From contig JADGOE010000002.1 in NCBI GenBank assembly GCA_017883135.1, forward strand, positions 36,580 through 100,579: a DNA stretch of 64,000 bases, read 5' to 3'. How positions within the stretch are numbered: the first letter of the stretch is position 1; every line of letters begins with the position of its first letter. The notes beneath the pieces are model-generated. The model was not told the origin of the DNA. It ran no database searches and saw only the letters and a program-made list of their open reading frames with translations. Of this stretch, positions 1,520-7,380 are shown piece after piece. The stretch comes from Acidimicrobiales bacterium. GTDB lineage: Bacteria > Actinomycetota > Acidimicrobiia > Acidimicrobiales > RAAP-2. A program made the position numbers and the translations under genes.

Positions 1520-2286
1520 TCAGCTACCCAGCTCCTTCATCTGTTCGAGGATCGCCTCGGCCGTCGGAGAGGACAGATCGCCGACCACCTTGCCGTCGGC
1601 AAGGAAGACGACCCGGTCCGCGTGGGCCGCGCCGCGCGGGTCGTGGGTCACCATGGCGATGGTCTGGCCGAACTCGGTCACCGACTTGCGGAGGAATTCG
1701 AGCAGTTCGGCGGATGCGTTGGAGTCGAGGTTGCCGGTGGGCTCGTCGGCGAAGATGAGGTCCGGCCGGCCGATCAGTGCCCGGGCGCATGCGATCCGCT
1801 GCTGTTGGCCCCCCGACATCTCGTTGGGCCGATGCGAGAGCCGGTCGCCGATGGCCAGCTGATCGATCAGGTAGTCGAACCAGGCCTGGTCCACCGGCCG
1901 GCCAGGTCGGCCGGCCGGTGGATGTTCTCGCGGGCGGTCAGGGTCGGCACCAGGTTGAACGACTGGAAGACGAAGCCGATCCGGTCCCGGCGCAGCCTGG
2001 TCAGTCCGGCATCGTCAAGGGTGCCGACCTCCTCGGCACCCACGAAGACGTGGCCCGAGGTGGGGGTGTCCAGCCCTGCCATGCAGTGCATGAGGGTCGA
2101 CTTTCCCGAGCCCGACGGACCCATCACCGCGGTGAACCGGCCCCGCTCGAAGGCGATGTCGATGCCGTCGAGCGCCCTGACGACGGCATCGCCTTTGCCG
2201 TACGTCTTCACCAGATCGACGGCGTGGGCCGCCGGCCCCGGTGGTGGAGCCGCCGCGTCCGGTACTGCTTCGTCGGTGACTGTCAT
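1520..2286 (-). pseudogene. ABC transporter ATP-binding protein (LolD/MacB type), frameshifted
   Basis: ATPase partner of the downstream FtsX-like permease. The N-terminal piece (2286-1867 frame) carries Walker A GPSGSGKST at about residues 56-64 and the Q-loop FQSFNLVP. The C-terminal piece (1894-1520 frame) carries signature MSGGQQQR, Walker B LIFADEPTGNLDS and the H-loop VTHD. Together they make one normal-length ATPase. The frames switch near 1895-1910 within a GGCCGGCC run: frame one reads LAGRWTRPG where the family has LAGRxxDxAWxD, and the other frame then supplies VDQAWFDYL. Loss of one base explains it. It may be a real inactivating mutation or a base-calling error in a GC-rich repeat; since all other motifs are intact, an error or a very recent mutation seems more likely. 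Confidence 0.8.
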
Positions 2287-6397: not shown

Positions 6398-7258
6398 CTA
6401 CTTGAGGAGGCGGGAGAGCCTGCGGCCGGCCAAGGGCCTGCCCCCGGTCTGGCACGTGGGGCAGTACTGCAGCGACCTGGTGGCGAACGAGACCTCCCGG
6501 ATGGTGTCGCCGCACGCCGGGCACGCCTCGCCGGTACGGCCATGGACCCGCAGGGCACGCTTCTTGTCGCCCTTCAGCTCGGACGGCTCGAGGTCCGACG
6601 ATCGCGCCACGGCCTCGCTGAGCACCCCCACCAAGGCGTCGTGCAGGCGGGCCACCTCGCCGGCATCGAGCCTGTTGGTCTTCTTGTAGGGCGAGAGCTC
6701 GGCGCGGTGCAGGGCCTCGTCGGAGTAGGCGTTGCCCACGCCGGCGATCAGCGACTGGGTGGTCAGCGCGGTCTTGAGGGTCGCCGACGTGTCGTGCATG
6801 AGTGTGGCCAGGCGGTCGACGGTGAACTCGGGCCCCAGCGGATCGATGCCCAAGCCGGCGACGGCGCCGATCTCGTCGGGTGACCCGACCACCCAAAGGG
6901 CCAACCGCTTCTCGGTGCCCATCTCGGTGACGTCGAATCCCGAGCCATCGTCCAGCCCGACCCGCAGGGCCAAGGGCCCCCGGCCCGGCCGGGCGGCGCG
7001 GGCCGGCACCTTGTCGTACCACCGGACCCAGCCGCCCCGGGCCAGGTGGAGCACCAGCCACAGGGTGTCGCACCCGACGCAGACGTACTTCCCCCGCCGT
7101 CGGACCTCGACGACGGTGCGGCCGACCAGGGCGTCGAGCGGGGGCGCCACCGTGCGCAGCGCCGCGAAGGAGGCCAGCTCGCACCGGTCGATGCGCCGGC
7201 CGGCCATGCGGCGCGCCAGCCCGGCAGCGAGGGTCTCGACCTCGGGCAGTTCGGGTAC
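6398..7258 (-). CDS. mutM: Fpg/Nei-family DNA glycosylase; start codon position reads GTA
   Basis: Base-excision repair glycosylase/AP lyase acting on oxidised bases. The family needs Pro2 (Schiff-base nucleophile) and Glu3 directly after the initiator Met. Here the in-frame sequence upstream of the track ATG (7207) reads (GTA)-PELPEVETL, exactly the family N-terminus, but the initiator position is GTA, with an in-frame TGA two codons earlier. Counting from that codon, the lysine of RRRGKYV is residue 57, as in E. coli Fpg. Other landmarks are the H2TH segment GVGNAYSDEALHRAELSP and a C-terminal zinc finger CPAC...CPTC. Starting at ATG 7207 would remove the catalytic residues. On the minus strand CACAAT lies six bases before GTA, matching the leaderless promoters seen elsewhere here. 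286 residues from GTA. The fpg versus nei assignment is not settled. Confidence 0.85.
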   Translation of the reverse strand, partial: VPELPEVETLAAGLARRMAGRRIDRCELASFAALRTVAPPLDALVGRTVVEVRRRGKYVCVGCDTLWLVLHLARGGWVRWYDKVPARAARPGRGPLALRVGLDDGSGFDVTEMGTEKRLALWVVGSPDEIGAVAGLGIDPLGPEFTVDRLATLMHDTSATLKTALTTQSLIAGVGNAYSDEALHRAELSPYKKTNRLDAGEVARLHDALVGVLSEAVARSSDLEPSELKGDKKRALRVHGRTGEACPACGDTIREVSFATRSLQYCPTCQTGGRPLAGRRLSRLLK

Positions 7259-7264
7259 AGGTCA

Positions 7265-7270
7265 ATTGTG
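7265..7270 (-). promoter_or_regulatory. putative -10 box of the fpg gene
   Basis: CACAAT on the minus strand ends exactly six bases before the GTA codon that precedes the catalytic Pro-Glu. The same geometry (box, six bases, start codon) appears before several intact genes in the window, which supports GTA as the intended start position. Confidence 0.4.
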
Positions 7271-7380
7271 GACCCTGGGCGACCGTAGTATCTGGTCCGC
7301 ACCGGCACCAGGTTCGAAATGGTCCGGTCGTGTCGGGTCCGAACGTGCGGGAACCTCCCCATCGGGTCCGGCAACACCTT

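Follow-up and report, generated by a model that had tools for sequence, protein, structure and literature searches.

A GTA codon at the ancestral start site of an Fpg/Nei-family DNA glycosylase gene in an Acidimicrobiales genome: a possible recent start-loss allele

When a DNA glycosylase gene carries GTA exactly where its catalytic residues call for an initiator, is the enzyme still translated from that codon, has the start been lost by mutation, or is the base wrong? This question is raised by an Fpg/Nei-family gene in a 64,000-nucleotide stretch of Acidimicrobiales DNA, hereafter the window. The initial annotation had pointed out that the frame encodes PELPEVETL directly after a GTA codon, that a TGA stop stands two codons upstream, and that Lys falls at residue 57, all of which we confirmed on the minus-strand sequence. 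That strand reads CACAAT, TGA, CCT (7261-7259) and GTA, and from 7258 onward GTA CCC GAA CTG CCC GAG GTC GAG ACC, in an intact, uninterrupted frame that closes with TAG at 6398-6400 (Table 1). With GTA taken as residue 1, the catalytic Pro2 sits directly after it, Glu3 is next, and the catalytic Lys is residue 57; the predicted N-terminal peptide of a product started at 7258 is PELPEVETLAAGLAR. An N-terminal extension from an upstream in-frame start is ruled out by the TGA, and a TTG that overlaps the start region sits in another frame, with a programmed frameshift finding no support. No GTG or TTG occurs in frame between codons 1 and 18. It was also correctly noted that starting at the ATG deletes the nucleophilic Pro: this ATG lies past both Pro2 and Glu3, and the resulting 269-aa open reading frame (ORF) would lack the two residues. 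The protein could now start there, at the first in-frame standard start, and have a non-catalytic role, but this ATG is preceded by no visible leader or Shine-Dalgarno context, PELPEV is conserved in all orthologues, and the Met itself is replaced by Ile in one of them, so that we regard such a start as very improbable.

Table 1. Positions, in the window, of the glycosylase gene and of the elements around its start
Feature	Positions	Strand	Evidence
Gene for Fpg/Nei-family DNA glycosylase (286 codons; ancestral start site through TAG)	6398..7258	-	Three Pfam models; PDB relatives; five close orthologues
GTA at ancestral start codon; derived base A (plus-strand T) at 7256	7256..7258	-	GTG/ATG there in 29/29 aligned homologues
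In-frame TGA stop, two codons 5' of GTA	7262..7264	-	Sequence; TGA likewise in G007, G010, G012
ATG, codon 18, first in-frame standard start	7205..7207	-	ORF list; G012 has Ile instead of this Met
CACAAT, 6 nt 5' of start codon; putative leaderless -10 box	7265..7270	-	Kept in five close orthologues; similar box in 18/30 loci

The frame is not a chance one, since three Pfam domains match it over their cut-offs, namely Fapy_DNA_glyco (1e-18), H2TH (6e-19) and zf-FPG_IleRS (6e-8). The best relatives of known structure in the Protein Data Bank (PDB) are Fpg/MutM proteins. Features shared with the Fpg/Nei (MutM/endonuclease VIII) glycosylases are the PELPEVE N-terminus with Pro right after the initiator, Lys57, the H2TH domain, and a CxxC-CxxC zinc finger with Arg. 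The N-terminal domain, H2TH and zinc finger were all found, and Pro, Glu and Lys57 belong to the protein if translation starts at 7258. The gene differs from these enzymes in having GTA rather than ATG or GTG as its start codon, and in scoring below the NCBIfam equivalog cut-offs for Nei2 and for fpg, the curated fpg models being missed at 153.8 versus 203.3 (TIGR00577) and 167.2 versus 212 (PRK01103). Because these curated thresholds were not reached, we call the protein a divergent member of the Fpg/Nei superfamily.

We searched 172 genomes of the same family and found five close orthologues (66-81% identity), together with many distant homologues. The orthologue comparison proposed in the initial annotation, which had asked whether GTG stands at this site, gave a clear answer: the codon aligned to the GTA is GTG in four of the five close orthologues (G007, G010, G036 and G038) and ATG in the fifth (G012), and 24 more distant homologues, whose loci were oriented and aligned, carry one of these two codons at the very same place. 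GTA was conserved in none of these relatives, all orthologues have PELPEV as their first residues, and the 40 bases 5' of the start are almost identical among the close orthologues, including CACAAT six bases before it. Since GTG or ATG and CACAAT lie at the same place in the relatives, the alignment shows that the GTA codon site is the ancestral start, probably a leaderless one, and that the A is derived. The G-to-A change that had been suspected is thus borne out by the orthologues, while inactivation by it, discussed below, is a tentative reading.

The gene was said to have the same geometry as the leaderless promoters of this genome, a claim that was supported, albeit not proven. An A/T-rich NANNNT hexamer was found 5-7 nt before the start in 18 of 30 loci, the window counted, and a Shine-Dalgarno-like sequence in only 2 of the 30; CACAAT stands at exactly 6 nt in all five close orthologues, as it does in the window, where no Shine-Dalgarno sequence accompanies it. 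Distances from a strict TANNNT to RTG, taken over 240 kb of three genomes, had a modest peak at 6-8 nt, and the loose motif [CT]ANNNT gave codon-frame periodicity only. A consensus promoter scan gave no match, and the folding of the RNA downstream of GTA was not unusual (z = 0.96). Taken together, the conserved box, its spacing and the scarcity of Shine-Dalgarno-like sequences suggest that the start at 7258 is probably leaderless. The leaderless genes of Mycobacterium smegmatis likewise lack a Shine-Dalgarno sequence and place a -10-like box some 6 nt from the start codon (PMC4633059). They require ATG or GTG at the 5' end, however, and this rule is obeyed by all relatives of the glycosylase gene, whereas the window gene has GTA.

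Standing first on a leaderless mRNA, GUA might nevertheless act as a weak, non-canonical initiator that gives a low level of DNA glycosylase. The conserved frame, catalytic residues and promoter, along with detectable purifying selection, are in keeping with such use, and rare starts do exist: sigR of the actinobacterium Streptomyces starts with GTC, as proven by mutagenesis and protein data (PMC5472188), which gives a precedent in Actinobacteria for initiation at a GTN codon that is not GTG. In sigR, however, a ribosome-binding site is present and translation has been proven (PMC5472188), whereas the window gene has no leader and its start is predicted from sequence. When all 64 codons were placed at the leaderless 5' end in M. 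smegmatis, a codon other than ATG or GTG was seen in only 547 of 343,242 selected reads (PMC4633059), and because only these two codons start leaderless mRNAs in mycobacteria, GTA is unlikely to work well as a start here. The literature searched yielded a single bacterial GTA start, itself an atypical case: avrE in one Pseudomonas strain, a gene that its authors list as probably non-functional (PMC3411506). GTA is conserved in none of the aligned relatives and turned up in no other Fpg/Nei gene of the 84,980-species scan described below, and the selection signal mostly predates the change. Initiation at GTA is hence improbable in our judgement, and the least supported of the options that had been put forward.

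A rare start may also occur in infC of this genome, which encodes initiation factor 3 (IF3). At L091 position 1249 (G000:C78, about 15147), no ATG, GTG or TTG precedes the conserved N-terminus ITTNEPRIND, and the sequence fits ATC, a start reported for infC of Streptomyces (PMC5472188). From this fit and the missing NTG codon, the lineage probably uses one rare start, in the autoregulated IF3 gene; this too has been counted in favor of a working GTA. Judging from the published work, IF3 itself should discriminate against GUA.

We then asked how often GTA occurs at this position. In a sample of 397 genomes of the phylum, PELPEVE was preceded by ATG, GTG or TTG in 249, and by a codon not ending in G in five, of which four were unrelated proteins or frames and the fifth was the window gene. 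A second pattern for PELPEMQA-type relatives, applied to 298 genomes of the order, yielded one chance match only; the five matches other than the window gene in the phylum and order scans were thus all set aside as unrelated proteins or chance frames. Across 84,980 genomes, one per species, in a scan that may omit the window's own genome and very near ones, GTA plus PELPEVE matched 14 times, never in an Fpg/Nei gene: all 14, in other species, were unrelated proteins or chance frames. With a single case in these scans, GTA by any cause is uncommon at the Fpg/Nei start; this holds alike for working GTA starts, dead GTA alleles and errors giving GTA, and the scan by itself favors none of the three.

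Evidence on selection bears on all of these readings. In a codon model of six orthologues, omega was 0.12 on the window branch versus 0.08 elsewhere, which is not different, and omega = 1 on the window branch was rejected (2 delta lnL about 19). The glycosylase thus worked through most of the period after the lineage parted from G007, and, because purifying selection acted on the gene's own branch, any loss is recent. This result leaves three options: the lesion is recent, the base is wrong, or the gene still works from GTA. A second Fpg gene, starting with ATG, is present on contig C3 of the same genome, and most congeners have no close orthologue of the window glycosylase, its presence in the genus being patchy. 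The orthologue of G037, which belongs to a neighbouring genus, lies on the minus strand of L087 (G037:C42:36000-42000); it keeps its GTG start and promoter, and homology ends after about 110 residues, which marks it as truncated. The second Fpg gene, the patchy presence and the truncated copy together show that loss of the orthologue is tolerated in this group.

We favor a recent, real start-loss mutation (GTG to GTA) of a dispensable gene, although we would put it at just under an even chance. The codon at 7258-7256 is the conserved start site of a probably leaderless glycosylase gene whose frame and promoter are otherwise intact; in this reading, its ancestral GTG was destroyed by one recent transition in this lineage. 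mRNA would still be made from the CACAAT promoter and would begin at or near GUA, with which the initiator tRNA (anticodon CAU) should pair poorly. As a Shine-Dalgarno sequence that might assist is also missing, hardly any full-length enzyme, if any, would be expected, and initiation at the codon-18 ATG would yield a product that lacks the nucleophile. The gene may then be a young start-loss allele, null or nearly so, and its loss would be tolerable because a second Fpg gene is kept on another contig and many congeners have no orthologue. It resembles other start-loss alleles, or young pseudogenes, in that the frame is intact and only the initiator, conserved in relatives, has changed, as may be compared with the GTA of avrE (PMC3411506). 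A start codon not ending in G, found for this gene alone among the 397 phylum genomes, speaks for start loss. Against it, no further lesion accompanies the GTA: the frame is intact, the key residues are present, and omega is 0.12; neither relaxed selection nor further decay was seen, which still fits a very recent loss. Given the lack of a second lesion and the rejection of omega = 1, a start loss must indeed be very recent.

An error of one base in the consensus would leave the same picture as start loss. The base at 7256 may be a consensus or strain-mixture error in the draft, in which case GTG stands there in the organism itself and the gene works normally. The draft comprises 126 contigs, the glycosylase looks functional in every other respect, and another gene of the window is frameshifted. 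On the other hand, isolated substitution errors are rare in consensus sequence, GTA by any cause appeared in no other Fpg/Nei gene of the species scan, and nothing at the 7256 site marks it as error-prone. An error is accordingly a real possibility, held to be less probable than start loss and more so than a working GTA; this ranking reflects judgements, not calculations. The frameshifted gene, about 5 kb away from the glycosylase (1520-2286, minus strand), encodes an ABC-transporter ATPase of the LolD/MacB type; it is split into two frames and is whole in eight congeners. Its break at 1891-1921 falls in an inverted repeat, absent from G007, whose 13-bp arms match perfectly across a 5-nt loop, and can be either a real template-switch mutation or a library artefact. 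Since single-gene lesions or errors therefore occur elsewhere in the window, the argument that the GTA must be meaningful is weakened.

The finding is ordinary in kind, and the exact case was seen once. Because the Fpg/Nei nucleophile is the residue after the initiator, it marks the exact translation start and allows genomes to be screened for unusual initiators; screened in this way, they held no second Fpg/Nei gene with GTA, which sets an upper limit on the frequency of GTA as a fixed start. Should GTA prove to work here, the AUG/GUG rule for leaderless mRNAs would need revision for this lineage. Otherwise, the lesson is a practical one: a gene caller would list the shortened protein from the ATG, from which the active site is removed.

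Several minor observations were made around the locus. A comparison of the starts of neighbouring genes with those of G007 and G010 was too noisy to be informative, as open non-coding frames in high-GC DNA mimic genes. In G036 and G038 (loci L006 and L007), an inverted repeat, GTCCA-CAA-TGGAC, surrounds CACAAT and extends over the start region as a possible operator; the window keeps only a shorter GGTC...GACC of it, at 7259-7275. Upstream of the glycosylase, the conserved block contains TAGTAT (plus strand, 7286-7291), a plausible -10 box for the divergent ileS, and from its position there, a single short region may hold the divergent promoters of both genes.
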